Assembly: GCA_028293825.1 (NCBI GenBank)
Contig: JAQGNY010000055.1
Location: 1-41,385, forward strand
Reading direction: 5' to 3'
DNA: 41,385 nucleotides
Source of the DNA: Verrucomicrobiaceae bacterium
GTDB lineage: Bacteria > Pseudomonadota > Gammaproteobacteria > Pseudomonadales > CAMLJR01
The notes beneath the pieces are model-generated. The model was given only the letters and a program-made list of their open reading frames with translations, was not told the DNA's origin and made no database searches. This document shows positions 1 to 13,765 of this stretch, one piece after another (the stretch's first letter is position 1; each line of letters begins with the position of its first letter). The translations under genes were made by a program, and so were the position numbers.

Positions 1-1
1 T

Positions 2-265
2 TCATTAGCGGACGGCGCCGTTATTTACGACATTAACAGCGATTACGTTATTGTGCGACGGGGCGAGCAAATGGAGAAATTGCCATTGCATGCTGGCGAC
101 CCCGTGGTCTATACAGCGACCCGCCACAGCACCGCTAAAGACACAGTGGTTGAGACTACTCCCCAATTACAGCCGGCCACTTCCTCAACCCCTGTCACAG
201 CACAAACAGTCTATAAAGGCTTGGAAGATCGCTTAGCTATGATTCGTCAAAATAAGAGTTCTTAG
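2..265 (+). CDS. gspC: Type II secretion protein GspC, C-terminal fragment (5' end outside window)
   Basis: This is an open frame entering from the left edge and ending at TAG 263-265. Its first visible residues (ADGAVIYDINSDYVIVRRG) look like the end of the GspC homology-region domain, the inner-membrane/periplasmic part that contacts the GspD secretin. After it comes a Thr/Pro-rich linker and a charged helical tail, VYKGLEDRLAMIRQNKSS. The identification rests mainly on context, since gspD and gspE follow directly in the canonical C-D-E order. The N-terminal membrane segment is outside the window. There is no visible PDZ domain after the homology region, so the tail replaces it or the protein is a short GspC/XcpP type. 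The tail is repeated almost residue for residue in the 98-aa protein at the end of this operon. Confidence 0.75.
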   Translation, partial: SLADGAVIYDINSDYVIVRRGEQMEKLPLHAGDPVVYTATRHSTAKDTVVETTPQLQPATSSTPVTAQTVYKGLEDRLAMIRQNKSS

Positions 266-297
266 ATATTTTAAAAAAAAAGTAGTTCGCGACGCTC

Positions 298-2436
298 TTG
301 CTTCGTTGCGTTAGATATTCAAGCTTGCCTGACCGGACAACGACGTTGATTGCTTTAAAGTATTTTAATAATTTCAAAAAAACCAAATCGTTTCAGCTGC
401 TCCAAAGAAGAGTTTTAAATACTGCAGTGTTGTGCCTCGGTATTGGCGGAAATTTTTCGTTGTGTGCAACGGCCGATCCCATCGCGCCTCCACCAATTCC
501 TACAACGACGTCACCTGCAAACCCAAACGGTGAGCAAATCACACTCGCGCTTGAAAATGCCGATATCAAAGAATTAATTCGTTGGGCGGCAGAGCACATC
601 AATAAAAACATTATTTTGCATCCGGATGTAAAGGGTCAAGTCACCGTCATTTCCGGCTCACCCCTTACGCGCGATCAAGCGTATGAAGTATTTTTATCGA
701 CACTGCAAGCGTATGGATATGCGGTCGTAGAAAGTAATGGCGTATTGCAAGTTGTTCCCACCGAAGTAGCCAACCAAACCAGCGTGCCCGTGTTGGAAAA
801 AGGCAAAACACATTCCGGCGAAGACGTCGTCGTTCAAATTGTTAAAACCAATAATATCGCTGCGACACAACTCGCCAATTTATTGAAACCGATGTTGCCG
901 GCATCAGCGTTGCTCACACCGTATTCCGACAGCAATTTATTATTAATCAGTGCACGCGCCAATCAGATCGAACGTCTACGCGCCATCATTGCTCGACTCG
1001 ATCAAGGCGGCGGGACCGATATTGATATGCTTACTTTAGATTTTGCGCGAGCGAAAGATGTCGTGCAAATTATTAACACGTTGCTGAATAAAGGCGGTAC
1101 ACAAGCGAGCAGTGGCGCAGGCAACTTTACGCTCACAGTGGACGAGCGCAGCAACAGCGTATTAATGAGCGGCGACTCGATAGTGCGCCAACAAGTACGC
1201 AGCTTGATCGAGCGACTCGATAAACCTAAAAGTGGTGAAGGCAATACGCAAGTGCTGTTTGTGCGCTTTGCTGCGGCAGAAACATTGGCCCCTATTTTAC
1301 AGGGCGTAAGCAGCAGCTTTTTAAAGGGCGATAAAGATCAAGCCAGCGCCAATATCGATACCAAGATTGAAGTGAGTAAAGAAAATAATGCGTTGATTAT
1401 TACCGCCGCACCAGCATTGCAAGAAGTGCTTCGCGGCGTTATCCGTCAATTGGATGTGCGTCGACCACAGGTCATCGTCGAAGCCATCATCGTCGAAGTG
1501 AACGACGACATTCTTAATAATATCGGTGTGCAATGGAATTCCGGTGTACCTGGTAGCAATGGTGTCTTTGCGGGCGCTAGTACTTTCGCCGACGGAACAT
1601 CGACGCCGACGCCGCCGGGATTGGGTGCAGGGTTAACACTGGGCTTCTATCACAGCGGTGATTTACGCGGATTGATTCGTGCGCTGAAATCCAACACGTC
1701 GGCGAATTTATTATCGACGCCCACCATCGTCGCGCTCGACAACGAAGCCGCACAAATTTTGGTGGGCTCGAACGTACCGTTTATTACGGGCCAATCGACG
1801 AGCGCAGCTTCTTCAACAACTACACCCTTTCAGACGATTGAACGCAAAGACATTGGCGTTACGCTGAAAGTAAAACCGCGTATTAACGATGACAGCTCCA
1901 TCACCATGGAAGTGGATCAAACCGTAGAGAGCATTGCGCCCAGTAATTCGAAAGCAGCCGATATCGTTACCAACAAACGCAATGTCACTACCCGGGTACT
2001 GATTGAAAACGATCAAGTGTTGGTATTGGGTGGACTCTTGCAAAACGATATTACCGATCAACAATCCAAGGTACCGTTGCTCGGCGATTTGCCTATCATT
2101 GGCCGTGCATTTCGCAGCACCAATACCGAGGTCACTAAAAAGAATTTAATGGTATTTATTCATCCGCGTATTTTGGCCACAGCGGATGATGCGCGCGCAT
2201 TGTCTTCCGATCGCTATCAAAATATTCGCGGCAAACAACAGCGCTTAAATCAAAATTTAGATCGCATTTTTATTCCAGAAAGTGCACCGCTGTTGCCGGC
2301 CATTGATAATACGGCCACACCGAAAGCGCCTGTACCGGCCGCCAGCGCGTCACCGGCGACACCAATGGCAGAGACAACGAATACAGCCGCAGCATCGGTC
2401 GTGCCGACTTCGGCGACCGCTCCTGCGGTTCAGTAA
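298..2436 (+). CDS. gspD: Type II secretion secretin GspD
   Basis: GspD is the outer-membrane secretin that forms the exit channel of the type II system. Visible are the N0 domain (LENADIKELIRWAAEHINKN and on), then N1-N3 repeats with the VxQIxx pattern, then the secretin core with the late motif VPLLGDLPIIGRAFRS near residue 600, and a Pro/Ala-rich C-terminal tail of about 50 residues. The length of about 700 aa fits the family. The start is uncertain. The frame is open only after a stop at 283-285, there is no ATG or GTG before the signal-peptide region, and TTG codons at 298, 325 or 346 are the candidates. I give the longest. A basic stretch (KKTKSFQLLQRR) followed by a hydrophobic run would then serve as the signal peptide. 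The gene ends one base before gspE. Confidence 0.93.
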   Translation: MLRCVRYSSLPDRTTTLIALKYFNNFKKTKSFQLLQRRVLNTAVLCLGIGGNFSLCATADPIAPPPIPTTTSPANPNGEQITLALENADIKELIRWAAEHINKNIILHPDVKGQVTVISGSPLTRDQAYEVFLSTLQAYGYAVVESNGVLQVVPTEVANQTSVPVLEKGKTHSGEDVVVQIVKTNNIAATQLANLLKPMLPASALLTPYSDSNLLLISARANQIERLRAIIARLDQGGGTDIDMLTLDFARAKDVVQIINTLLNKGGTQASSGAGNFTLTVDERSNSVLMSGDSIVRQQVRSLIERLDKPKSGEGNTQVLFVRFAAAETLAPILQGVSSSFLKGDKDQASANIDTKIEVSKENNALIITAAPALQEVLRGVIRQLDVRRPQVIVEAIIVEVNDDILNNIGVQWNSGVPGSNGVFAGASTFADGTSTPTPPGLGAGLTLGFYHSGDLRGLIRALKSNTSANLLSTPTIVALDNEAAQILVGSNVPFITGQSTSAASSTTTPFQTIERKDIGVTLKVKPRINDDSSITMEVDQTVESIAPSNSKAADIVTNKRNVTTRVLIENDQVLVLGGLLQNDITDQQSKVPLLGDLPIIGRAFRSTNTEVTKKNLMVFIHPRILATADDARALSSDRYQNIRGKQQRLNQNLDRIFIPESAPLLPAIDNTATPKAPVPAASASPATPMAETTNTAAASVVPTSATAPAVQ

Positions 2437-4011
2437 ATGGCCGCGCTAGAGATCAACAATGCAGACGTGAACACGTCGGTGCCGTACGCGTTTGCCAAAC
2501 GTTTTCGTTTGGTTGTCGCTGAGCGGCCAGCGAGCACGTTAGACGATACCGATACGGCAATCACTTCAACCGCACTGCGAATCCTCATTACAGAACGCAC
2601 ACCACCGGAAGCACTGCTCGAAATTCGTCGCTTCCTCGCTTGCCCGGTCGTCTTTGATCTCACCGATGAGCCCACGCTTGATGCGGCCATCATGTTTACC
2701 TATGAGCGCAAAACCGGTGCTGCACAGCAAGCGGCCACGGATGCCGACGAAACGCTTGATCTGACGCGGCTAGCCGAACTCACACCGACCAGCGAAGACT
2801 TGCTCGAAAAAGATGACGACTCACCGATCATTCGTTTGATCAACGCCATGCTCAGCGAAGCATTGCGCGAAGGCGCGTCCGATATTCATATCGAGACGTT
2901 TGAAACGCGCGTCGCCGTGCGCTTTCGGGTCGATGGCGTACTGCGCAGTATTCTTGAACCGCAGCGTGCTTTAGCGCAGCTGTTAGTTTCACGCATCAAG
3001 GTGATGGCACGGCTCGATATCGCTGAAAAACGACTGCCGCAAGACGGGCGCATTTCACTGCGTATCGGCAATCGCGAAGTCGATGTACGGGTGTCGACGA
3101 TTCCTACGCGTCACGGCGAACGGGTGGTAATGCGTTTGTTGGAAAAAAATACCGATCGCATTGATCTCAGCGTGCTCGGTATGTCGGACACTGATTTAGT
3201 CACACTGCGCCAATTAATTACACGCCCCCACGGCGTTGTCCTTGTGACGGGACCCACCGGCTCCGGTAAAAGCACAACCCTATACGCGGGATTAAGTGCG
3301 CTCAATGATGGCTCGCGTAATATTTTAACCATCGAAGACCCCATCGAATATGACGTGGAAGGAGTGGGTCAAACACAGGTTAACGCGAAGGCAGGAATGA
3401 GTTTCGCGCGCGGCTTGCGGGCCATTTTGCGCCAAGACCCCGACATCGTCATGATCGGGGAAATACGCGATACGGAAACAGCGGACATTGCGATCCAAGC
3501 AAGCTTAACCGGCCATTTGGTGTTATCGACTCTACACACGAACACCGCCATTGGTGCAGTCACACGTTTACTTGATATGGGGGTCGAGCCGTTTTTATTG
3601 TCATCCAGTCTCGCTGGATTAATTGCGCAGCGTCTGGTGCGGCAGCTATGTCTCGCGTGTAAACAGCCCTACGAAGCGGATGACGCAACGCGAACCTTAT
3701 TGCGTAGTGAAACTATCGATACAGTCAATGCCGACGTCTGTGCTCCTGCACAAAGAGCTCCGTTAGTTCTTTATAAAGCAGTGGGCTGCTCCGAGTGCCA
3801 TGGCCTGGGTTATCGCGGACGTACTGGTGTCTACGAAATTATTTCAGTTGATGAAGCCTTACGAACGCTTATCCATACCGGGGCCGGAGAACAAGCCTTA
3901 ACGCAACGCGCCCGTATGACGAGCACCGATATGCTGCAGGACGGCATCAATAAAATTAAAGCCGGCATTACCTCTGTCGATGAAGTGTTGCGAGTTATTC
4001 ATGCGCACTGA
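2437..4011 (+). CDS. gspE: Type II secretion cytoplasmic ATPase GspE
   Basis: GspE is the hexameric cytoplasmic ATPase that powers pseudopilus assembly. The sequence shows an N-terminal region of about 130 residues (N1E-like), the N2 region (SDIHIETF), Walker A GPTGSGKST starting near residue 272, the Asp box (IEDPIEY), Walker B (DPDIVMIGEIRD), the His box (TLHTNTA) and a tetracysteine zinc site (CLAC and CSEC). The 524-aa length is normal. The ATG follows the gspD stop with no gap, which implies translational coupling. The stop lies inside or next to the start of gspL. GspF, which normally follows GspE, is absent here and is replaced by gspL. Confidence 0.97.
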   Translation: MAALEINNADVNTSVPYAFAKRFRLVVAERPASTLDDTDTAITSTALRILITERTPPEALLEIRRFLACPVVFDLTDEPTLDAAIMFTYERKTGAAQQAATDADETLDLTRLAELTPTSEDLLEKDDDSPIIRLINAMLSEALREGASDIHIETFETRVAVRFRVDGVLRSILEPQRALAQLLVSRIKVMARLDIAEKRLPQDGRISLRIGNREVDVRVSTIPTRHGERVVMRLLEKNTDRIDLSVLGMSDTDLVTLRQLITRPHGVVLVTGPTGSGKSTTLYAGLSALNDGSRNILTIEDPIEYDVEGVGQTQVNAKAGMSFARGLRAILRQDPDIVMIGEIRDTETADIAIQASLTGHLVLSTLHTNTAIGAVTRLLDMGVEPFLLSSSLAGLIAQRLVRQLCLACKQPYEADDATRTLLRSETIDTVNADVCAPAQRAPLVLYKAVGCSECHGLGYRGRTGVYEIISVDEALRTLIHTGAGEQALTQRARMTSTDMLQDGINKIKAGITSVDEVLRVIHAH

Positions 4012-5317
4012 AATGCCATCCATTTTTTTATATTGGCAACACGCCGATCAGCCCTTAATTGTCGATGCGCTTGCGTGGGCAATGACCGATCAACACCTTA
4101 TTTTGCAAAGCGGGCTGGGCTTAGATTCGCTGATTCAGCAGATTAATACTTTAAATAATCCAGCGCTTTCACTATCGAATAACAGCAGTCACGGTAACTT
4201 GGCCATTACGCTAATCGTGCCTGCAGAAACCGTTTTAATAAATTCTGTTTCAGTTCCTTCATCTAAATTGCAGCATATCCGTGCTGCAGTACCGCACCTT
4301 GTCGAAGACTGGAGTGCAGCAGAAATTGAGACATTGCACATTGCCACAGCCTCTCGTGCAGACAACGGCAAAGTTCCCATAGCGGCTATTAGTAAGGAAT
4401 TATTAACTCACTGGTTAGCCGCTCTGGAAACAGCCGGTCTGCGCTGTGAGCAAATATATATCGATGCACTGCTACTGCCCTCCTCTTTCGATACGCTCGC
4501 ACTGTTCGTTGATAAAAATAGAATTTTGTTGCGATGGGCTGCGCACAATGCCGGTGCGATTAATATCGACTCGCTTGAGCCTCTACTGAGGTCTTTGTTA
4601 AAGCACGGCGACATACGCAAAATTCAATGGAGTGCTGAGGCCGCGACCGATGTAACGGTTTTAGAACGAGTACAAACGCTGCTAGCTGACTTACAGCATC
4701 GACATGAAATCACCGTTGATCGCGATCACGCCGTTACCACTTTCTGGCAGTTACTCAGTAAAAAAACTATTGGCGGTGGCTTACCACTCATCAATCTTCG
4801 CCAAGGTGTTTTTGCTGTACCTGATAGGCATCAAGCATCGTGGCGACGCTGGCGGCCGACCGTGCTAGTGGCGAGTTTTTTTGCGGTGGCGATTTTTATG
4901 TTGAACGCTATCGGCGGGATCGTATTGAATCACCGTGCCAGCATTGCGCATGCTCAAAATGAAGCGCTCTATCGAGAGCTATTTCCGCAAGACCAGCGGC
5001 TGGTTAATGTGGCGCAGCAGTTCCGCGCCCATTTAGCCACGGCCTCGAACGATGGCCACGCTCCGTTTTTACTCCTATTTAGTCAACTGGCTGAGACCAT
5101 TAAAAACAACAATACCGAACCACCGCTTCAATTGCGCTCGCTGGTTTTCGATGCGGCCACCGGCGTCTTACAAGTTGAGTTAGTCACACCCAATATTCAA
5201 ACGCTGGATACCTTGCAGAAACAACTCAGCGCGCAGCATTTACGCAGTAAGGTGATTTCCGCCATTAAAGAAAACGGCTCTCTGATCGGTCGTCTCAGCA
5301 TCGTGAGTGGTGCTTAA
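4001..5317 (+). CDS. gspL: Type II secretion protein GspL
   Basis: GspL is the bitopic inner-membrane protein that holds the GspE ATPase at the membrane and partners with GspM. The N-terminal cytoplasmic actin-like part contains the family pattern LIVPAETVLINSVSVP followed by LPHLVEDW-like residues. The pattern INLRQGVFAV precedes one transmembrane segment (about residues 285-310, VLVASFFAVAIFMLNAIGGI), and a ferredoxin-like periplasmic domain follows. The start is uncertain. ATG 4001 overlaps the end of gspE by 11 bases and ATG 4013 is just after the gspE stop; neither has a strong ribosome site. A TTG at 3980 would give a longer overlap. gspM starts two bases after the stop. Confidence 0.9.
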   Translation: MRTEMPSIFLYWQHADQPLIVDALAWAMTDQHLILQSGLGLDSLIQQINTLNNPALSLSNNSSHGNLAITLIVPAETVLINSVSVPSSKLQHIRAAVPHLVEDWSAAEIETLHIATASRADNGKVPIAAISKELLTHWLAALETAGLRCEQIYIDALLLPSSFDTLALFVDKNRILLRWAAHNAGAINIDSLEPLLRSLLKHGDIRKIQWSAEAATDVTVLERVQTLLADLQHRHEITVDRDHAVTTFWQLLSKKTIGGGLPLINLRQGVFAVPDRHQASWRRWRPTVLVASFFAVAIFMLNAIGGIVLNHRASIAHAQNEALYRELFPQDQRLVNVAQQFRAHLATASNDGHAPFLLLFSQLAETIKNNNTEPPLQLRSLVFDAATGVLQVELVTPNIQTLDTLQKQLSAQHLRSKVISAIKENGSLIGRLSIVSGA

Positions 5318-5319
5318 TC

Positions 5320-5823
5320 ATGATTTATCAAAAGCTACAACATATAGAGCGACTGAATAAATGGTATCAGCTGCGCTCTGAGCGCGAGCGCAAGCAGCTT
5401 CTCATCGTATTTATTGTAGTGGTAGCGCTGGTGCTTCCCTTTACGCTAATTAAATCGGCGTGGGATTTTGCACAGCATGCACGCACGGGACTCGACAACG
5501 AACAAGCCCTTACCAGCTTAATTCAAAGCCACGCGGATGAAATCCGCGCGCTAAACACTGCACGCCAAGCAAAAACGGGGCAAGACACGTCATTGTTAGC
5601 GCTGGCCTCGAAAACAGCTATCGATCACGAATTGACGTTGGAGCGTTTCGAGCCCGGCCCTGATGGAAAGTTAGCGGTGTGGTTAACCGATACTGAATTT
5701 AGCAAATTGCTCGATTGGTTAAATCAAATAACACAGCAATACGATGTGCAAATTAATCGCATTGCACTAAACCAATCGCCAACACCCGGTAAGGTTGAAG
5801 TACAGCTGATATTGCGGCAATAA
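5320..5823 (+). CDS. gspM: Type II secretion protein GspM
   Basis: This is a 167-aa protein with a short basic cytoplasmic N-terminus, one transmembrane helix (LLIVFIVVVALVLPFTLI, about residues 27-45), a helical stretch and a small periplasmic alpha/beta domain. This is the architecture and size of GspM, the inner-membrane assembly-platform protein that dimerises with GspL. The position right after gspL supports it, and the tightly spaced junctions (2 bases upstream, 1 base downstream) place it in one transcription unit. Primary sequence conservation in this family is low, so the call rests on architecture and context. Confidence 0.85.
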   Translation: MIYQKLQHIERLNKWYQLRSERERKQLLIVFIVVVALVLPFTLIKSAWDFAQHARTGLDNEQALTSLIQSHADEIRALNTARQAKTGQDTSLLALASKTAIDHELTLERFEPGPDGKLAVWLTDTEFSKLLDWLNQITQQYDVQINRIALNQSPTPGKVEVQLILRQ

Positions 5824-5824
5824 G

Positions 5825-6121
5825 ATGGTCAATTCAAAAAAACAGGAGAGCACGGTGAGGACTCAAAAATTAATCACGATTGGCGTGGCCATTATTGTCA
5901 TTGCGGGCATCGCGTTTATCGCCAACAACGCATTTTATATTTACCACCATCCGTTAGCATCGACGAATAACGTACAAGAAAGCGCCGGAGGTACTGCAAC
6001 AACAACCTCTGCGCAACGCGCCGCGGCGCCGAGTATGCCGCAAGATAAAGAACATGCTGTTGTTTATAAAGAGCTGGAGGAGCGACTTAAAGTGATCCGC
6101 GAGAATCAAAGAAAACCCTAA
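5825..6121 (+). CDS. Small membrane protein with a GspC-like C-terminal tail, last gene of the T2SS operon
   Basis: This is a 98-aa protein with one transmembrane helix at about residues 16-37 (LITIGVAIIVIAGIAFIANN), a low-complexity Ser/Thr/Ala/Pro linker, and a charged helix VYKELEERLKVIRENQ. That helix closely matches the GspC tail VYKGLEDRLAMIRQNK in this same operon. The gene therefore looks like a GspC without its homology-region domain: membrane anchor, linker and tail only. It occupies the place where gspN sits in other operons but shows no resemblance to GspN. A role in binding the same partner as GspC, or in regulating assembly, is inference. No clear terminator follows the stop. 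Confidence 0.75.
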   Translation: MVNSKKQESTVRTQKLITIGVAIIVIAGIAFIANNAFYIYHHPLASTNNVQESAGGTATTTSAQRAAAPSMPQDKEHAVVYKELEERLKVIRENQRKP

Positions 6122-6181
6122 AAACGATAGAAAAATTGATACTTTCGACGTCGCAATGCAAGGTGTTGGATTATGCATCCA

Positions 6182-6281
6182 ATTGACCCAGCTAATAGAA
6201 TAATGCCGGAATGCACTGACCCGCTGGCATCGAATTAATCTATTGATCCAGCGACTTTTAAATGTTGCCCACTGGGTCAAT
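6182..6281. repeat. Array of TTGACCCAGC-like motifs, three direct and one inverted
   Basis: Copies are TTGACCCAGC at 6183-6192, CTGACCCGCT at 6216-6225, TTGATCCAGC at 6243-6252 and, on the other strand, TTGACCCAGT at 6271-6280. The outer two form a perfect 10-base inverted repeat, ATTGACCCAG (6182-6191) and CTGGGTCAAT (6272-6281). Start-to-start spacing is about 33, 27 and 28 bases, near three helical turns. Just before it lies TTGGAT-TATGC-ATCCAA (6167-6183). Regularly spaced motifs at the edge of a recombinase module could be protein-binding sites for the recombinases or a repressor; this is inference. Confidence 0.5.
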
Positions 6282-6401
6282 GCCCCTTGGAAACGTGGGA
6301 TCAAATACTCTCGGCAATCAACAATCAAGGGGCCAGACATAAAATGCTCATTCGATCGCAACGACGTTCAAGCGAACATTCGCCTGTTAGTGTCACGGTG
6401 C

Positions 6402-6548
6402 CTGGGAAAAGGTTCCAGCGCGGGCAGAGAAGAGCGGCAAGAGGGCTTATCAATAGAATATGCCCGTTGCTTTTAGGGGCGAGAGATAATCGATAGCAGG
6501 AGCTCAGTCTTCCTTCGTGTATTGAAGAAGGGACTCGCCCCCGGGGGC
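6402..6548. other. Cluster of GC-rich hairpins, candidate structured RNA or folded recombination site
   Basis: Four pairings lie next to each other: CTGG(G)AA-AAGG-TTCCAG at 6402-6418; GGGC..GCCC with further internal pairs at about 6443-6465; an 8-base perfect stem GGGGCGAG (6476-6483) with CTCGCCCC (6534-6541) enclosing a 50-base loop that has its own small CTTC/GAAG hairpin; and the 12-base palindrome GCCCCCGGGGGC (6537-6548), which competes with the long stem. The local GC content is clearly higher than in the recombinase genes next to it. No known RNA family is recognised and the strand is undetermined. Confidence 0.3.
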
Positions 6549-6717: not shown

Positions 6718-8088
6718 TTATGACTCAACTGAAACCTTGGCCAACGCCTCCATATATCGAAGAGTGACATCACTAATTTGGGCAGAGACTTCTGGATCGA
6801 CGGAGTCAGTATTCCGAACGCTGGAGCATAATGACTGAAGAGTTCTAAACAGTGCATCAGCTTCAAAGCGATGTGACAGCTTCGCATCGACCGCATTCCA
6901 AATACCGATTTCATTAAACGCTAAATCTACATAACCCCAGAGACTGTCAATTGACTTATGCCCCGTCAGTGAAGCCACATTGGTTAATATAGTGGTGGTA
7001 ATATCGATTGGTATTTTTCGATCTTGATATGCCCGGAATCGCTCAGCTACCTGGATAGTAATCCAACGGTGGCGCAGCATGTGTGCGGTTGCCGGCTGCG
7101 CTATATGAGCGGTTTTTCTTAATCGCGCAATATCCTGGGTTATTGTTTCAGAATTTAATATCTCCCCCCGAATTGTTAAAAATAACCACTGCGGCTCCTC
7201 TGAAATTATGCCAAGCGATAATAATCGATTAACCAGCATAGCGCGCTGAGTTTCAATGAACGAAAGTGCAGCATCCACTGTCGCTTCCGGTACCGGTACC
7301 AATCTTAAAAATTCGTCAACTCGCTTAGCCGTGCGCAAAACCAATCGCCCGCTGTCTTTAGCCTGCAGGATATCATTCACAGTGAGCATCGATGCTTCTG
7401 AACGCCTACAACCCGTATCAGCTAAAATACCAAGAAGAACCCGCATTCTTAATTGCACATAACGTGATTTTGCTAACTGGTCACATGCATCGAGTAGCTG
7501 CAAGAAAATCGTTCTGCCCATCGGCAAAACGTCTTTTGGCACATCGCGCGGCGCCATACTGCCATGCCATAAATAACGTGACACACGCCCTTTTTTTTGT
7601 AACTTTCTCTCCTCTACAACAATAAGTGGATTCATAAAATGAGAACCTACGAGTATTTGCTCTTCGGGCAGGCGAAAGCGCTGGTACCAAGTTAGAAAAG
7701 AAATCGCACGACCAATAAGTTTATTAATCTGTCGGCCGGCTCTTTTTCGCTGAAAATCATATCGCCTATGAGGCTCACCCTCTAACCAATTTCGGAACTC
7801 GTAAAGCACTCCATCATCGACTTCGAAAAATGTTGCCTGCTTCAGTGATAAATAGTTACAAAAAACACTAAGCTGGCTCGCGTAGGTATTCACCGTTTGC
7901 AAAGCAGCGCCCCTCTTAAAAAGAGAAATTATGTACATTGAAGGAAACCAATTGACCGTCCCATCTGGCCGCAGCAGCACCCGTAAACCAAAGGCATTTC
8001 TAGTCTTCGAAAGTAAGCTGCCTTCATAAATCGCAATATCACAATCCGCAGATGCAGAAACCCAAGATTTAGCTTTTTGCCTTCTCAA
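6718..8088 (-). CDS. Tyrosine recombinase, 456 aa (fourth gene of module)
   Basis: This is a site-specific DNA recombinase with a complete catalytic set by my count: Arg228 in GCRRSEA, a candidate Lys255 in the following beta-hairpin (TAKR), His336 and Arg339 in HMLRHRW, His377 in GHKS and nucleophile Tyr386 in WGYVDLA. The His-to-Tyr spacing of 9 is typical. An N-terminal core-binding (SAM-like) domain spans about residues 45-135. About 65 residues follow the tyrosine, longer than in minimal integrases. Size and completeness recall Tn554 TnpA or the GmtY recombinase of gamma-mobile-trio islands, but which it is closer to cannot be decided by eye. Its ATG overlaps the stop of the upstream 177-aa gene by four bases (ATGA type), so translation is probably coupled. 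Confidence 0.88.
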   Translation of the reverse strand: MRRQKAKSWVSASADCDIAIYEGSLLSKTRNAFGLRVLLRPDGTVNWFPSMYIISLFKRGAALQTVNTYASQLSVFCNYLSLKQATFFEVDDGVLYEFRNWLEGEPHRRYDFQRKRAGRQINKLIGRAISFLTWYQRFRLPEEQILVGSHFMNPLIVVEERKLQKKGRVSRYLWHGSMAPRDVPKDVLPMGRTIFLQLLDACDQLAKSRYVQLRMRVLLGILADTGCRRSEASMLTVNDILQAKDSGRLVLRTAKRVDEFLRLVPVPEATVDAALSFIETQRAMLVNRLLSLGIISEEPQWLFLTIRGEILNSETITQDIARLRKTAHIAQPATAHMLRHRWITIQVAERFRAYQDRKIPIDITTTILTNVASLTGHKSIDSLWGYVDLAFNEIGIWNAVDAKLSHRFEADALFRTLQSLCSSVRNTDSVDPEVSAQISDVTLRYMEALAKVSVES

Positions 8089-8618
8089 AGCTGGGAACCA
8101 TTCAGATCAAGATGAGAAATTTTTTCGGGGTAAGCTCTTCGATGCTTTCGAAGTAAATCGGCAGCTAATTTATTTTGTGGTGCTAGAGTGGCTACCCGTT
8201 CTAGCAGATCAGCATATTGCATGCTCATATGAATCACTGAGTCAACGAGTCGCTGCTTTCTACGCTCTAGATCTTTTACTTCCTCAACTAACGCAGCCTT
8301 ACTCCCTTTAGAAGAAGCAACAACGGGAGCAGAAATATTCTTTCTATCTTGCTCAAACTGAGTCAGCCCGCCCTCATATAGCATTTCAATATTCTTACGA
8401 AGAGTATTGATAGATTGCGGCCTCACACCAAGTTCGATCGAAGACCAATTAGCCAAGGCAACCTGAGTTTTAAAATTCTCCAATATTTGAGGAGAATATG
8501 ACTGAGATTTGTGAAGGAGGTGAGAAAATATTTCTATGATACGCAGAGTAGACTCAATACCCTTGGCGTTTTTTGCTGCGATTCCTCGTGCAATTTCACC
8601 CTTCGTCAATCGTGGCAT
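8085..8618 (-). CDS. Small HTH/coiled-coil accessory protein of the recombinase module
   Basis: This 177-aa soluble protein lies between two recombinase genes and overlaps both (23 bases upstream, 4 bases downstream). Residues about 55-80 (ELGVRPQSINTLRKNIEML) look like a helix-turn-helix of the kind that recognises DNA. Residues about 105-145 are a Lys/Glu/Leu-rich predicted coiled coil (VEEVKDLERRKQRLVDSV). Size and position recall TnpC of Tn554 (DUF6262-like) and GmtX of gamma-mobile-trio islands, both small partners of large recombinases. A role as directionality or DNA-bending factor is inference. No catalytic motif is seen. Confidence 0.75.
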   Translation of the reverse strand: MPRLTKGEIARGIAAKNAKGIESTLRIIEIFSHLLHKSQSYSPQILENFKTQVALANWSSIELGVRPQSINTLRKNIEMLYEGGLTQFEQDRKNISAPVVASSKGSKAALVEEVKDLERRKQRLVDSVIHMSMQYADLLERVATLAPQNKLAADLLRKHRRAYPEKISHLDLNGSQL

Positions 8619-10788
8619 AAGGCACCCGAGTAAGCTGGATAACGATTACAGTTTGTTGCCCGTCAGCTGTAATGATGGAGCGAGGGAATACTGTAAAAAG
8701 TCCTTCTCTATGCTTTAATTCTAAGAACTCTTCAATATCTTCAGTCGCAATTAAATCCAATCTGTCGGCATTAAAATGCCGTTGCAAAATTTTTCGCAAG
8801 TCGATCACGCCCTTATCCGCGCCTTCGGCTTGGTAAGTCATGACTGCCTCTATCGCCATTGCAGCCTCTATCTCGCTAATTTCGCTGCCCGTCAAATCTT
8901 CCTTAATATATCGCCAAGTATGGGAAATGTCTGAGTGTCCGAGAAACCAACTCAATGTTGGCAAAGTATTTTCTTGTCCGCTTAATCTAAAAAAACTAAG
9001 CGCTCCAAACCGGCGACATTCATGGAGACGCAAATACCAACGAGCCCCGTTTAAATCCAATGGCACACGAATCCAGTCACAAAACATATCTAAACTTTCA
9101 TTAATCGTTGACGCGCACGGCGAGAAAAGAAGATTTTTATTACCACATTGCAATGCAAGAACTTTCCATAAACGATCATCGGTCCTTACATGATTTTGAC
9201 TATCTATTGCTCGCAATCGTAATGTGAATTTACGCTGTAAATTCAATCCGTCATAAAGCAAACGAGGAATGGGCCGGCGAATTCGTGGGTTTATTCCATC
9301 GCTGCCTTTCTTTTCGCATTCGACATCTATGTAACATCGACCGTTAATTTCACACAACGAAAAAATATCTAACCGGGCTACTTCCCCGTGTCGGCGCATC
9401 GTAAACGCAGCAGTTAATCCGACCAACACAGCTAGGTTCAGCCGAAGAGCGTCCATTAGCCCCATTCCTTGATACTGCTCCGCCCCAATGCCCGCTTCTT
9501 GAGGTTCAGTCCAAAAATTTCGAGGTGCATTTTTTCTATTCGCCGCTGTGGCGAACTGATCGATGCCGAGAGGTTGAAGATTGTGAGGAATAGGATTTTC
9601 TTTAAAAGCTTTCGCCTCATTCACACCATACCTTGCTCGCGGCATGGATCGGTATTGCACTACTATTTCACCAACATATTCGAACAACGGAGCTGTATAG
9701 TTTAAAACCCAATTAAGCATGCGATCGTACATTAACAATGCAATGGGCATGGGCAGCGTTGGCGTACGGCCTCTAGTGCCGCCGTGTAAGGGGAGGCTGA
9801 TCTGAAAAAAATCGGCTTGTGCGAGCGGCGAGTCTTTAAGTGATGAAATGGATTTTGCGAAATTTGGTAAATCGCACATTTTGTCAAATAGAATACGTTG
9901 GCTGCTCTGAGTTATTCCGCGCTCAACTTGCGCTAGAGCTGTGTGCTGCCTAACGCTAACTTTCGCACGCCTGCTTGAAGAATTGAGCCGATTTATCTGG
10001 GAGAGATTCCGTATCTCAAGAGCCTCAAGAAAGAAGTTGAGTCGAAGTTTCGACCGGCCAATACGTGAAAAATCTACGTCAATCGCATGAGCAATTTTCG
10101 AAAATGAAATTTTTCCCGCAGAGCTGAACCAATTGAGTTGACGCAGCCTAACTACCACTTCATCGATTTCGCTTTCATCTAATCCTTCAATCAAAAACTC
10201 TCTGGCCGGAAAAGTTTTATTTGTAGTTATTAACGTCGGAGTTTTAGTAAAGATAAACTCCTGTCCTTTTAAGTTGAGCAAACTACGAAAGAAGTTTCGA
10301 AGGCGATGCAGCCAAGCACCTGTCCCGGCGATACCCATAACAATATGATCAGCGCAAAATCTTTCTATCTCGGTAGGGGTAATAAATGACAGCCCCTCTT
10401 CGGCTACTTGATCCAGGTAGTGAATAATCAAATGCTCACATAGAGCCATAAGATGGTTGCAAAATGTCTCAAGTGACCGGGGTGTGGTTGCCGTAGCATT
10501 TGGCGCTTCAAGACTCGCTACTGCCAAGAGTTTTACGTGAGTCAATAGCCGTGCCCATCGGCCGTGAGTGAGAAAACCTCCGGGCAACTTGAGCGCCCAG
10601 TCCACTAGTAATGTCCGATGCCATTTATTTTCGGAGAAGTAGCTCAAACCTGGAATCTTAATCTGCCAACATTCGGCGCTAAAATTAGTTACTAGCCAAG
10701 ACGGGCTCGAATCGGCAGTGATTAAGACTTCGCCCCGATCTAGAAAACTTTCAAGTTCTTCGGGCAAAAAAACCTTCATTGAATCCAT
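8596..10788 (-). CDS. Large tyrosine recombinase, 730 aa (second gene of module)
   Basis: The C-terminal half carries a full tyrosine-recombinase set by my count: Arg466 in MRRHGE, Lys493/494 in CEKKGSD, His589 and Arg592 in LHECRRFG, His618 in GHSD and Tyr627 in WRYIKED, again with nine residues from His to Tyr. About 440 residues precede the catalytic domain, far more than in phage integrases, as in Tn554 TnpB or the GmtZ-type integrases. About 100 residues follow the tyrosine. It overlaps the upstream 697-aa gene by 13 bases and the downstream small gene by 23 bases, so the module is one coupled operon read away from radC. It is probably active, given the intact residues. Confidence 0.85.
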   Translation of the reverse strand: MDSMKVFLPEELESFLDRGEVLITADSSPSWLVTNFSAECWQIKIPGLSYFSENKWHRTLLVDWALKLPGGFLTHGRWARLLTHVKLLAVASLEAPNATATTPRSLETFCNHLMALCEHLIIHYLDQVAEEGLSFITPTEIERFCADHIVMGIAGTGAWLHRLRNFFRSLLNLKGQEFIFTKTPTLITTNKTFPAREFLIEGLDESEIDEVVVRLRQLNWFSSAGKISFSKIAHAIDVDFSRIGRSKLRLNFFLEALEIRNLSQINRLNSSSRRAKVSVRQHTALAQVERGITQSSQRILFDKMCDLPNFAKSISSLKDSPLAQADFFQISLPLHGGTRGRTPTLPMPIALLMYDRMLNWVLNYTAPLFEYVGEIVVQYRSMPRARYGVNEAKAFKENPIPHNLQPLGIDQFATAANRKNAPRNFWTEPQEAGIGAEQYQGMGLMDALRLNLAVLVGLTAAFTMRRHGEVARLDIFSLCEINGRCYIDVECEKKGSDGINPRIRRPIPRLLYDGLNLQRKFTLRLRAIDSQNHVRTDDRLWKVLALQCGNKNLLFSPCASTINESLDMFCDWIRVPLDLNGARWYLRLHECRRFGALSFFRLSGQENTLPTLSWFLGHSDISHTWRYIKEDLTGSEISEIEAAMAIEAVMTYQAEGADKGVIDLRKILQRHFNADRLDLIATEDIEEFLELKHREGLFTVFPRSIITADGQQTVIVIQLTRVPYATIDEG

Positions 10789-12869
10789 TTTGGAAAAACC
10801 ACCTTGCCTCTTAGGTCATTGAGTCTCTCTTTCGCTTTTTCTACCAGCTGCACCAAGGGTCGCTGGACATCGAGCTTTGGAGTGAGGAGAGCATCTGCAA
10901 AATCGAGCCATAAACGGGGAGCGGTTTTAGTTGCTGCATCGGGAATATCTAAAGCTGATGGGTAGGATTCGAGAAGATGTTCCCTATAGAGAAACAGCAA
11001 TGCAATAGGATCTGGATTTTCTGCCATGACCAATTTCCCACTGCACTCAGCTTTAAATTTTTCAACCTGAAAAGACTCAACTCTTTGAGCGATTATCGGT
11101 AATCGATCGGACATCGTTGTAGAAGATAGTGGACTCACCGCTGAATCGGAAAAAAATGAAGAAATAAAAACATGAAGCTCCTCTGTGGTGGAAAAATCCG
11201 TCGCCTCAAGAAGATAATCTTTACCAACGGCGGCGGCACAAATCAAAATATTTTGCCAGCGACGAATCTGTTGTTCATACATAGCTGCTTGCAAAGGTTG
11301 CGGAATGTAATGGCCCAACGTCGTTTTGATATCTTTGTGACCAAACGCTTTCGCTGCAGTCTCAATATCGCCTTTGGATTGAAACCATTTGTAAACTCCA
11401 GCGGAGACTCGAAGACTCTTCAAAGTCGCGGTAGTGGCCCACGGCATCAAAGAAGGGTGACTTTCTATAAAGGAAGGAAGGGAACGTGTTGATCGCGGCT
11501 TTAAGGTTCTCTCGTAAACTTCTTTCTTTTTAATAGATCGGGAAAGAGGAACCCTGAACGCATTGCGTAAATTATTAATAGACAATCTACCAATTGTATA
11601 GGTCTTAGACTGTACAAACCCTATCCATAAATATTGGGCTTCCTCAAAACGACCCTCATTTATCAGCCGCTCCCTAATCGGTCGAGTCCACTCAATCACT
11701 AAATTCAAATAGCTCACTGCATTCTTTGAAAGGATGCTATGCATCTGGCTTTGTGCACGCGGTTTATCGACAGAGATTCGGAAATCCTCGCCTTCGCCAG
11801 CATTTGATATGAGAATTTCCTGTCCTTGAGAATTCACGATTTTTGCGGACAACAGCGACGCCACATTAACCCGAGGATTCTCTATCATGATTAAAACGAT
11901 TATGGGAATCGCACTCCTTGCATTCATTAATCCCAGATAAGGCAGCACTTTATCTTTACCAAATGCTGCGAGAGCCCTCGCTCCTTTTATCGGAGCACCT
12001 GTAAGTTTAAGCTTTGAAATATAAGGCAATGGAAAGCAATTCATTTCACTCTTAACAACTCTCAAGTGATCGGCGATAAATGGCAGCGAGGCCAATTCAT
12101 TCGCATTAAAATTAGACGCCTCTAGATTGGCACTGGCCACGAACTGGGATCGATCGGAATCTACATCGTTTGATATATTCTCTATAAAACCTTTGCCCAA
12201 CTCGCTTTTAAATTGCATTTGCTCGCATTCTTGCAATGCCTTATTTCTGAACTGATCCAGCGCGTCGCCGAGTTTCTTTTCATATTCATCTAAATACTCT
12301 TGATGATTTAAATGGAGCGATAGGGGGACTAATAGATCTGTGTGAAAGGCATCGCTTTCAACACTTAATTTTTTAGGAATCATCCGTAGATCGGTGACCA
12401 CATTCGCCCGCACCGCCTCTCTGAGTTCGCCAGGATCACGATTAGGAAAGGCTTTGTACGCCCCTGAATTCCAATCGACATACGGCAACAGTTTCTGCTC
12501 GCATAAGTGCTTGCAAAGGATAATCAAACCAAGCCACTGACCACTCGCATAGGACAACGACACGCGACTAGATCCAATTTGTTCGTAACACGCACGCCGA
12601 AGATTTTTAAGCAGGGTATGAAACGTAGCGGAGGAGGTTGGAAGGAGCGGAAACTGTTCAGGATTTCTTTGATTCTCAGCAATCCAGAGCAGCGTTGCAG
12701 AGCGTGCCGAATAAACCGGCGCCGGGCTGGCGTAGCGCAAAGCAAATTTTTGGACCTGCTCAAACCATTTGCCCCTAATCCTGAGGGGCAAACAGCTAAT
12801 GAGGGGAAATGACACCATGCTAGAACCATCTAGCGTCGTCGGGTTATTACAATGGATGTAATATTTCAC
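10776..12869 (-). CDS. Degenerate tyrosine-recombinase-like protein, 697 aa (first gene of module)
   Basis: This is the gene nearest the radC junction. The C-terminal fold is recognisable (AFGHKDIKTTLGHYIPQ, with His511 and Tyr521), but the first box reads ENPRVNVASLL (Arg333 kept, usual Glu lost) and the H-x-x-R box reads K484-S-L-R487, so the first His is replaced by Lys. It may be a structural or DNA-binding partner rather than a full catalyst. After the tyrosine come about 175 further residues ending in a basic segment. The start is GTG at 12867-12869 without a clear ribosome site; an ATG at 12818 is the alternative. This extra recombinase is what separates the module from a plain trio with three genes. 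Confidence 0.75.
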   Translation of the reverse strand: MKYYIHCNNPTTLDGSSMVSFPLISCLPLRIRGKWFEQVQKFALRYASPAPVYSARSATLLWIAENQRNPEQFPLLPTSSATFHTLLKNLRRACYEQIGSSRVSLSYASGQWLGLIILCKHLCEQKLLPYVDWNSGAYKAFPNRDPGELREAVRANVVTDLRMIPKKLSVESDAFHTDLLVPLSLHLNHQEYLDEYEKKLGDALDQFRNKALQECEQMQFKSELGKGFIENISNDVDSDRSQFVASANLEASNFNANELASLPFIADHLRVVKSEMNCFPLPYISKLKLTGAPIKGARALAAFGKDKVLPYLGLMNARSAIPIIVLIMIENPRVNVASLLSAKIVNSQGQEILISNAGEGEDFRISVDKPRAQSQMHSILSKNAVSYLNLVIEWTRPIRERLINEGRFEEAQYLWIGFVQSKTYTIGRLSINNLRNAFRVPLSRSIKKKEVYERTLKPRSTRSLPSFIESHPSLMPWATTATLKSLRVSAGVYKWFQSKGDIETAAKAFGHKDIKTTLGHYIPQPLQAAMYEQQIRRWQNILICAAAVGKDYLLEATDFSTTEELHVFISSFFSDSAVSPLSSTTMSDRLPIIAQRVESFQVEKFKAECSGKLVMAENPDPIALLFLYREHLLESYPSALDIPDAATKTAPRLWLDFADALLTPKLDVQRPLVQLVEKAKERLNDLRGKVVFPKWIQ
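12845..12863. repeat. Perfect 7-base inverted repeat at the first recombinase start
   Basis: TATTACA-ATGGA-TGTAATA lies across codons 3 to 9 of the 697-aa gene. The geometry (short arms, five-base centre) resembles TTGGAT-TATGC-ATCCAA at the left side of the module. It could be an operator or recombinase site at the element's right end, or chance. Confidence 0.25.
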
Positions 12870-12880
12870 GTACTTAAATG

Positions 12881-12888
12881 CCTTAATC
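12881..12888. repeat. Right copy of possible terminal inverted repeat CCTTAATC
   Basis: CCTTAATC here is the exact reverse complement of GATTAAGG at 6689-6696. The pair brackets the four recombinase genes, 12 bases before the first start and 22 bases beyond the last stop. Around it, CTTAAATGCCTTAA (12873-12886) is an imperfect inverted match to TTAAGCATTATGTAAG (12902-12917), which reaches nearly to the radC junction. The short length makes this only suggestive. Confidence 0.3.
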
Positions 12889-12901
12889 GATCTATTTGCA
12901 G

Positions 12902-13450
12902 TTAAGCATTATGTAAGGGAAAGCCGTGGTTGTGAGCGACAATTACGGCCGCCGCGTTGTGGCGCAGACAGCGCTTGACCACTTCTCGTGGATATACGGC
13001 CGCGCCGTCGATGGTGCCGTAAAACATCGGCTCGAACGCGAGCACGCGATGGCGGGTATCAAGAAATAATACGGCGAATACCTCGCGCGGCTCGTCGCGC
13101 AACTGCGCGCGTAAATATTGTTGTGTCAGCGCCGGACTGGTCAGCACATCGCCGGCTTGCAAGCTTTCGTGCAAATGCCGGCGCGCCATTTCCAGCACCG
13201 CCTGTAGTTGTGAAAACTTAGCCTCGCCCAGGCCGTGCGCCGCGCAAAATTCGCTAGCCGACGCGTTCAGCAAATGCCGCAAACCGCCAAACCGCTCCAG
13301 CAAATCGCGTGCGAGATCGACAGCCGTTTTGCCGGCGACGCCGGTGCGTAGAAAAATAGCGAGCAGTTCGGCATCGGATAATGCATTGGCGCCGCGTGCG
13401 AGCAGTTTTTCGCGCGGGCGTTCGGCGGCGGGCCAATCGGTAATTGCCAT
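12902..13450 (-). pseudogene. radC: radC, truncated by the mobile element inside its JAMM motif
   Basis: RadC is a helix-hairpin-helix plus MPN/JAMM-domain protein of uncertain role in DNA repair, often about 224 aa. Here the frame starts at ATG 13448-13450, behind a strong AAGGAG, and reads normally ([18 protein letters not shown] region; MPN domain) up to VIVAHNH. It then continues with GFPLHNA and a stop, where the family has VIVAHNHPSG followed by about 40 residues. The last seven residues come from the inserted element. The remaining JAMM Ser and Asp are lost, so any metal-dependent activity should be gone. The other half of the gene is not in this window. It is divergent from coaBC, as in Pseudomonas. 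Confidence 0.93.
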
Positions 13451-13765
13451 CTCACTCTCCTTGTGAATTGTGGGCCTTGTGATTTCCGGGCCCTTTAGAC
13501 TTGCGGACTTTGTGATTTTCGAGCCCGGTGATGTGCAGCCCTTGCGTGTTTGCGCAAACGCATTCCGGACGCGCGTGAAATTCAAAATTTATCGGATTTA
13601 TAGACGATACTGTTGGTTGAAAACGCGCTGTTGAATTTGCGCGCCGCGCGTTGATGAACCTCCCAATGCGGCCGGCGCAGCTACTTGCGGACCGACTCGG
13701 GGGCCTCTCGGCGAGGCGCAAACAATGCTATCTTAACCGCACTTTTTATCCCACCGGACGCAGTC
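13451..13765. promoter_or_regulatory. Divergent radC/coaBC intergenic region with a 12-base palindrome
   Basis: About 315 bases between the two divergent starts. It contains a perfect palindrome GTTTGCGCAAAC (13548-13559) and two imperfect copies of CTTGTGATTTCCGGGCCC (near 13473 and 13510, the second reading CTTTGTGATTTTCGAGCCC). No gene is seen. Both promoters should lie here; the palindrome could be an operator, but no regulator is identified. Confidence 0.35.

Follow-up and report, generated by a model that had tools for sequence, protein, structure and literature searches.

We analysed a stretch of 41,385 nucleotides (the window), which represents contig C37 in full and belongs to a genome of 4.34 Mb in 56 contigs. 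It carries a minus-strand operon of four genes next to a junction within the host gene radC (Table 1). An earlier note on this DNA had described four genes encoding proteins of 697, 730, 177 and 456 aa, and the coordinates of the open reading frames (ORFs) confirm this layout, with overlaps of 13 (697/730), 23 (730/177) and 4 bases (177/456). We refer to the operon as the quartet and to its genes, in transcriptional order, as tfp, intB, srap and intA. The G+C content of the quartet is 44.5%, compared with 56.7% for the chromosome beyond radC.

Table 1 Features of the window around the quartet and the radC junction
Feature	Position	Strand	Remarks
697-aa Tfp-like protein	10776..12869	-	GTG start; first operon gene, adjoins radC junction
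730-aa IntB-like large tyrosine recombinase	8596..10788	-	Catalytically complete
177-aa small protein	8085..8618	-	Srap/GinD/TnpC position; helical N-terminal part and long coiled coil
456-aa IntA-like tyrosine recombinase	6718..8088	-	TTG start; catalytically complete; last gene
Host radC 5' part (N-terminal domain and JAB domain up to HNH)	12902..13585	-	Host sequence from 12926; frame continues into element to 12902
Element left end (attL side), 56 bp, radC junction to 697-aa gene start	12870..12925	.	Host identity stops after CACAACCAC
gspD, type II secretion (Secretin)	298-2436	+	Pfam
gspE (T2SSE)	2437-4011	+	Pfam
gspL (T2SSL/GspL_C)	3980-5317	+	Pfam
gspM (T2SSM)	5320-5823	+	Pfam
Dispersed 163-bp repeat	6162..6323	+	3' of quartet; 93.3% to copy near right end on C36

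We scanned one genome per species with the IntB alignment alone and obtained 80 matching stretches, which yielded 21 confirmed loci from Gamma- and Betaproteobacteria. Profile hidden Markov models for the four proteins recovered the order tfp-intB-srap-intA on one strand in all 20 loci with room for it, while the 21st is cut by a contig end at the place of tfp. Among the 20, tfp of L059 and intB of L066 are each divided between two frames. After merging of near-copies, about 15 distinct quartets remain. Because the 20 loci were found through IntB only and share all four genes, their order and their strand, the arrangement exceeds chance, and the consistent co-occurrence that the earlier note had named as the mark of a distinct system is borne out. 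The opposite case, homologues occurring without their partners, did not arise in the genome scan, but a distant relative on a P. putida plasmid (L047, 5117-9321) has tfp-intB-srap, with no intA found. A scan with the 697-aa protein alone gave 29 stretches, none of which was confirmed. Near-duplicates, truncated or disrupted copies and remote relatives (L001, L041, L042, L047, L048, L052, L059, L060, L061 and L069) were kept out of the profile sets, as were ORFs below the length or score limits; with the split intB of L066 also omitted, the IntB set holds 20 sequences and the other sets 21.

We further searched 72,556 plasmid records by tblastn. Tfp relatives occur in 17 records (14 with the window protein, 16 with a Providencia query), IntB relatives in the same 17 and IntA relatives (E<=1e-10) in 16, the exception being an Acinetobacter defluvii record with an IntA fragment beside an insertion sequence element. 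The annotated regions of seven of these plasmid records keep the quartet order, although P. koreensis has it in pieces and tfp of pF068 occupies two frames. When IntB was searched for less strictly and with a different query, the P. putida plasmid and one from the alphaproteobacterium Rhodovastum (L048, 3805-8679) were added; in the latter only the IntB match is significant, and a recombinase gene lies about 5 kb off. Over 6.5-8.2 kb, the DNA of the Providencia plasmid quartet matches loci in records from Thalassolituus, Colwellia, Neiella and Acinetobacter at 99.83-99.97% identity, and because its DNA is near-identical across genera, the sequences point to recent spread between orders. In the Providencia plasmid an annotated class A beta-lactamase gene stands directly left of the quartet, within the stretch that this plasmid has in common, at 99.8%, with the Colwellia and Neiella loci (L039, 3091-11322, and L058-L060).

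The earlier note had credited the 730- and 456-aa proteins with the complete R-K-H-R-H-Y set of tyrosine recombinases. We located these residues in both proteins and found them largely kept in their homologues: R466, K493, H589, R592 and Y627 of IntB in 20/20 and H618 in 19/20, and R228, K255, H336, R339 and Y386 of IntA in 21/21, with H377 in 19/21. IntA is the sole quartet protein with a Pfam match over the cut-off (PF00589, 5.1e-13), and the 730-aa protein gives no Pfam match up to E 1. For the 177-aa protein only six weak Pfam hits below the cut-off were obtained, ZapB being the best. Its family has a conserved SLNTLK-type motif, and its predicted structure (mean predicted local distance difference test score, pLDDT, 86.3) comprises a helical domain that leads into a long coiled coil (helix 107-145). 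Foldseek returned nothing at E<=0.001 for this model, which leaves room for an unlisted fold.

The catalytic set is incomplete in the 697-aa protein, regarded in the earlier note as an additional recombinase-like protein. All 21 homologues have R487 and Y521 and 15/21 have H511, while His occupies the box II His position in 0/21. The presumed box I Arg is found in four (the window copy, the P. aeruginosa copies L002 and L049, and L062) and is absent from the other 17; the box names are those of the tyrosine-recombinase literature. The role of a third working recombinase was therefore rejected for this family, the window copy itself having Arg at the box I position. No Pfam or NCBIfam family lies over its cut-off, and Pfam has no match at all up to E 1. 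The 17 Tfp-like proteins examined (the 697-aa protein and 16 homologues) likewise fit none of the NCBIfam families, among them GmtY, so that these searches gave no sign of membership in a known trio, which the earlier note had named as evidence against a distinct system. When its structure model was compared by VIA-align, rows 1-38 were all tyrosine recombinases or members of the same superfamily (Z 10.3 to 6.8, residues about 175-545), including two type IB topoisomerases and SroF. The first unrelated row follows at Z 5.9, and the tool warns that Z 7-8 may be chance. Because VIA-align ranks this superfamily above unrelated rows, the 697-aa protein most likely has a recombinase fold in which the Tyr and one Arg, but not the full active site, have been retained. 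Its most likely equivalent is Tfp/GinC, the degenerate protein of this fold described in PMC10214605 and PMC5385486.

The host gene radC is split by the element. RadC has exactly two matches in the genome, profile positions 2-73 at C37:12926-13141 and 74-121 at C36:55618-55761, and the right end of the element lies on C36, beside CCGTCTGG. Joining of the two flanks yields a continuous, in-frame RadC with the AHNHPSG motif (...AHNHPSGVAEPSQ...), and the rejoined sequence is as in 30 uninterrupted radC loci from related genomes. Since the joined flanks restore the frame as in these loci, the element is read as having entered radC between the HNH and PSG codons, with no target duplication or loss visible in the sequence. 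Of the element, C37:1-12925 and about 1.7 kb of C36 are known, and the stretch between them is not assembled.

To relatives of the quartet, comM and hrpB serve as further targets. Twelve genomes that contain the loci, picked partly for comM-like left flanks, were searched for comM with the Mg-chelatase family. In six of these chosen genomes comM is split by a quartet island of about 39-64 kb: in P. aeruginosa PA7 at an NPCPCG site (about 39.7 kb) and in five others just past the LFLDE(L/F) codons, which we take to encode the Walker B motif, namely in a betaproteobacterial metagenome-assembled genome (39 kb), Polaromonas (64 kb), P. cyclaminis (46 kb), Curvibacter (40 kb) and P. grimontii (46 kb), the last with comM also divided over two contigs. 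At the comM junctions host bases are apparently neither lost nor repeated, as judged against intact comM of other genomes and not against same-strain empty sites; in Polaromonas, one base ahead of the junction differs from the usual codon. Three Pseudomonas quartets abut an HrpB-like helicase gene, identified by CON_HrpB in L064, by Helicase_C in L062 and by 78.5% DNA similarity to L062 in L063, and a pattern search for the other half of hrpB succeeded in none of the three genomes.

The earlier note had raised the possibility of a new subtype. The quartet's own sequence lineage and gene order support this, as set out below, but two known four-gene systems, SE and GInt, had been overlooked. SE consists of intA-tfp-intB-srap; intA, intB and srap are each reported to be required for end joining, and a tfp knockout was unobtainable (PMC10214605). 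We used pAQU1 and relatives, which have this order, as SE reference quartets. BLASTP of pAQU1 against the window proteins gave nothing significant (best E 0.033; small protein versus Srap E 1.2). Profile-profile comparison connects IntA (96.3% probability) and IntB (95.9%) to SE, and by hhalign leaves Tfp at 1.4% (against five SE Tfp) and the small protein at 1.2%, with a best hmmsearch E of 0.019. Against four SE-order quartets from Pseudomonas plasmids (L134-L137) the probabilities are 98.1% for IntA, 98.1% for IntB, 81.2% for Tfp and 1.3% for the small protein, and hmmsearch with Tfp reaches two of the four second proteins (2e-6 and 2.7e-6). We had also considered these plasmid quartets as GInts and rejected this, their second protein being degenerate and their third IntB-like; they are counted as SE-like because all four proteins match SE at 97.2-99.8%. 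As judged from the profiles, IntA and IntB are distant relatives of those of SE, the Tfp link is borderline and the small protein is not linkable.

A single branch of the IntB tree (support 100/99; 100% of 200 bootstrap trees) parts the 20 new sequences from the 10 SE-order ones, and a quick IntA tree gives the same split (SH-aLRT 100); L051 sits on a long branch, so that its place within the new group is unsure. As far as these sequences go, gene order and phylogeny agree in this sample. The two systems have in common a four-gene operon at one end of the element, an ordinary and a large catalytic tyrosine recombinase (both complete here), a recombinase-fold protein without the full RHRY set, a small coiled-coil accessory protein and site-specific insertion. 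They differ in (i) gene order, intA being last in the window and in 20/20 testable loci and first in SE, (ii) size, the six measured islands spanning 39-64 kb against a median of 15.7 kb reported for SE (PMC10214605), and (iii) distribution, since the new quartets are present in Beta- and Gammaproteobacteria, whereas SE is reported in Gammaproteobacteria only (PMC10214605).

We consider it unlikely that the quartet is a divergent SE whose intA moved to the end of the operon. The four roles are the same, IntA and IntB match the SE profiles and Tfp weakly matches the second protein of the SE-like plasmid quartets; against these likenesses stand the near-zero probabilities for Tfp and the small protein versus their SE counterparts, the different order in all 20 testable loci and the well-supported branch that sets the new quartets apart from all 10 SE-order ones. 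A further point for this explanation comes from PA7 (G402, C1:76186-83269; L142:2687-9770), where a five-gene operon encodes a 784-aa tfp-like, a 700-aa intB-like and a weakly srap-like 314-aa protein, a 128-aa ORF and a 435-aa intA-like protein. Its proteins are mostly nearer to the SE-like set, the IntA- and Tfp-like ones among them, yet intA is last. The PA7 operon is possibly another gene-order variant, and because it combines SE-closer proteins with a terminal intA, 'intA last' alone does not define the family. In the Serratia genome of L056, a new-type quartet is followed after about 1 kb by an SE-order set, giving two modules in tandem (L139, G414:C10:159500-167500): the quartet intA ends at 2423, and the SE-order intA (3414-4703), tfp-like gene (4669-6426) and intB (from 6423) follow.

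GInt has been reported with an operon at the 5' end in the order ginA-ginB-ginC-ginD, the intA-like ginA being first and the degenerate protein third, and with all four genes required (PMC5385486). The group carries Tn names such as Tn6571/Tn6488 (PMC8865565), its median island size is 34.9 kb (PMC10214605), and defence-carrying GInts are reported in E. coli (PMC10121019). Compared by description, GInt and the quartet share three recombinase-like proteins with a small fourth, large cargo and site-specific insertion in conserved genes. That the quartet is a GInt of the Tn6571/Tn6488 type in another gene order is nevertheless rather improbable: four genes including a degenerate recombinase and a small protein, the similar island size and the defence cargo in E. 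coli would fit, whereas the intA-like gene closes the operon in the window and in 20/20 loci and ginA is first in the reported order (PMC5385486), the description by which GInt was compared here. The targets differ as well, being radC, comM and hrpB here and commonly ssb or ABC-transporter genes, with imperfect direct repeats of 10-17 bp, in GInt (PMC5385486). Weak direct similarity between the two ends of the window island was seen by eye only, set against GInt repeats of 10-17 nt. Two alignments, L138 and L141, were tried as GInt candidates and gave none.

Tn554 combines an ordinary recombinase, a large recombinase and a small accessory protein, much as the quartet does, and it also targets radC. 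Elements of the gamma-mobile-trio (GMT; GmtY/GmtZ/GmtX) have two recombinases and a small protein. The earlier note had found no exact fit to Tn554, GMT or RIT, and this judgement holds. Tn554 membership was rejected on gene content: the window and each of the 20 testable loci have a gene for the 697-aa recombinase-fold protein or its homologue, a Tfp counterpart is absent from Tn554 (PMC10214605), and gene order and number differ. GMT membership was rejected as well, the 456-aa protein scoring 15.4 bits against a GmtY cut-off of 340 and no Gmt model being listed for the other three; GMT cargo is described as rich in defence genes (PMC12715929). RIT elements also hold several recombinase genes per operon, but these are three recombinases, of 315-410 aa in the archetype and all with the catalytic Tyr (PMC10214605), whereas here proteins of 697, 730 and 456 aa, one of them without the full catalytic set, are joined by a small non-recombinase, and RIT membership was rejected on these grounds.

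We conclude, with a probability of roughly 85%, that the quartet is a self-contained site-specific recombination module of an island precisely integrated in radC, and that it belongs to a lineage separate from the SE-order quartets. In this module, nicking and strand exchange, both at the island ends and at the target, would be carried out by IntA and IntB as the two working tyrosine recombinases. The Tfp-like protein would act as a non-catalytic recombinase-fold partner and the 177-aa coiled-coil protein as an accessory, both most likely binding the island ends and setting strand choice and orientation. This division of labour, with catalysis by IntA and IntB and the ends arranged by their two partners, is proposed by analogy with the gene requirements of SE and GInt. 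A circular intermediate, strand-biased copy-out and a need for all four proteins may likewise be expected from work on SE, GInt and Tn554.

Several points weigh against this conclusion. Movement, a circle and expression were not observed. The window island is not assembled through, with a gap from C37 to C36. At the radC and comM junctions, which were read, the last-base boundary is ambiguous, so that a 6-bp footprint as in SE is uncertain. The AlphaFold model of the 697-aa protein is poor (pLDDT 57.8), and Foldseek alone returned nothing at E<=0.001 for it, so that it too could have an unlisted fold. The near-identical sequences in different genera could in part be due to contaminated draft assemblies. 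Finally, protein and profile searches for the 697-aa protein succeeded in 0/368 other genomes sampled across the class, and because it was thus found in 1/369, its own genome, the quartet family is thinly spread and rare. A decayed remnant beside a radC split that represents an old immobile rearrangement would agree with the right island part lying unassembled on another contig and with the dispersed 163-bp repeat at both ends, but is highly improbable given four open frames, full catalytic residues in both recombinases, base-precise radC junctions and relatives at 99.83-99.97% DNA identity in different genera.

The module we propose represents a separate, apparently undescribed lineage of a known mechanistic class and a sibling of SE and GInt, the latter compared by description only. 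No description of the order tfp-intB-srap-intA was found in the PubMed Central literature (titles, starts of abstracts and passages), a coverage outside which subscription papers and preprints lie, and the tfp-srap lists of the SE survey (PMC10214605) could already include members of this family. Profiles, gene order and target sites are now available for islands whose first gene has, in the window, no Pfam or NCBIfam family. Between the two gene orders intA changes place and tfp-intB-srap keep together; with a second, independently ordered quartet it becomes testable which of the four proteins make up the core, and also what a catalytically incomplete recombinase does in such systems.

The cargo of related islands was scanned with PADLOC, using 100 chosen ORFs of 157 listed (the 157 including quartet genes) from five islands; the island of G407 was left out. 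The results comprise the 25 largest families among the matches listed and are pooled over two and three islands, because of which most matches are not assignable to a single island. Among the matches listed for 40 ORFs of the PA7 and betaproteobacterial islands are ZorD (in the PA7 island), ZorA, ZorC and Ssp C/F/G/H, together with type I restriction proteins, ShosT and mad2. In the second pool, 60 ORFs from the islands of P. cyclaminis, Curvibacter and Polaromonas, three of the matches listed are helicases of the GajB type, possibly UvrD helicases of a general kind. A type IV restriction match is listed for the P. cyclaminis island, and copper-resistance and efflux domains occur in this pool as well. 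Pooled island cargo with PADLOC matches to Zorya, Ssp, Gabija-type and restriction proteins is thereby at hand. The expectation of defence or secretion-linked cargo in the earlier note thus holds for defence genes in the cargo of some relatives.

Sites in comM and radC have been discussed as transformation-linked insertion sites of mobile elements, although RadC is not always essential for transformation (PMC4774983). An anti-transformation reading of the comM and radC insertions is attractive and would fit elements that disable transformation genes to avoid curing, an idea considered in PMC4774983. In its widest form we hold the following proposal to be an even bet: a lineage that is not SE and possibly not GInt either, has intA as its final gene and occurs in Gamma- and Betaproteobacteria comprises subfamilies specialised on catalytic-motif codons of conserved DNA-processing genes, two of them transformation-linked (comM and radC), and insertion both shields the island from removal by transformation and brings defence cargo.

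Within the window, the gspD-E-L-M block (298..5823) lies inside the insertion, because the radC halves are located outside it on C37 and C36. Near-full-length T2SSE matches number five in the genome, the window secretion ATPase among them, and for this reason the block may be an extra secretion set. Two small proteins with similar C-termini, ...YKGLEDRLAMIRQN and ...YKELEERLKVIREN, bracket the block (window 1-6121), which gives the appearance of a gene duplicated at either end. By its sequence, an ORF in the C36 part of the element encodes a serine beta-lactamase-like hydrolase. The repeat listed in Table 1 has five genome copies (150-163 bp, 93-97% identity), at window 6162-6323, C36:55829-55978, C34:206594-206751, C15:79370-79518 and C15:80655-80803; the two C15 copies are less than 3 kb from an integrase-like frame, the window copy comes just past the quartet and the C36 copy is near the right end of the island. 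In G162, a genome from the same order as that of the window, partial RadC matches on C33, C8 and C38 (profile positions 81-121, 81-120 and, twice, 2-36) accompany one full copy, and these may be radC genes broken by other insertions.

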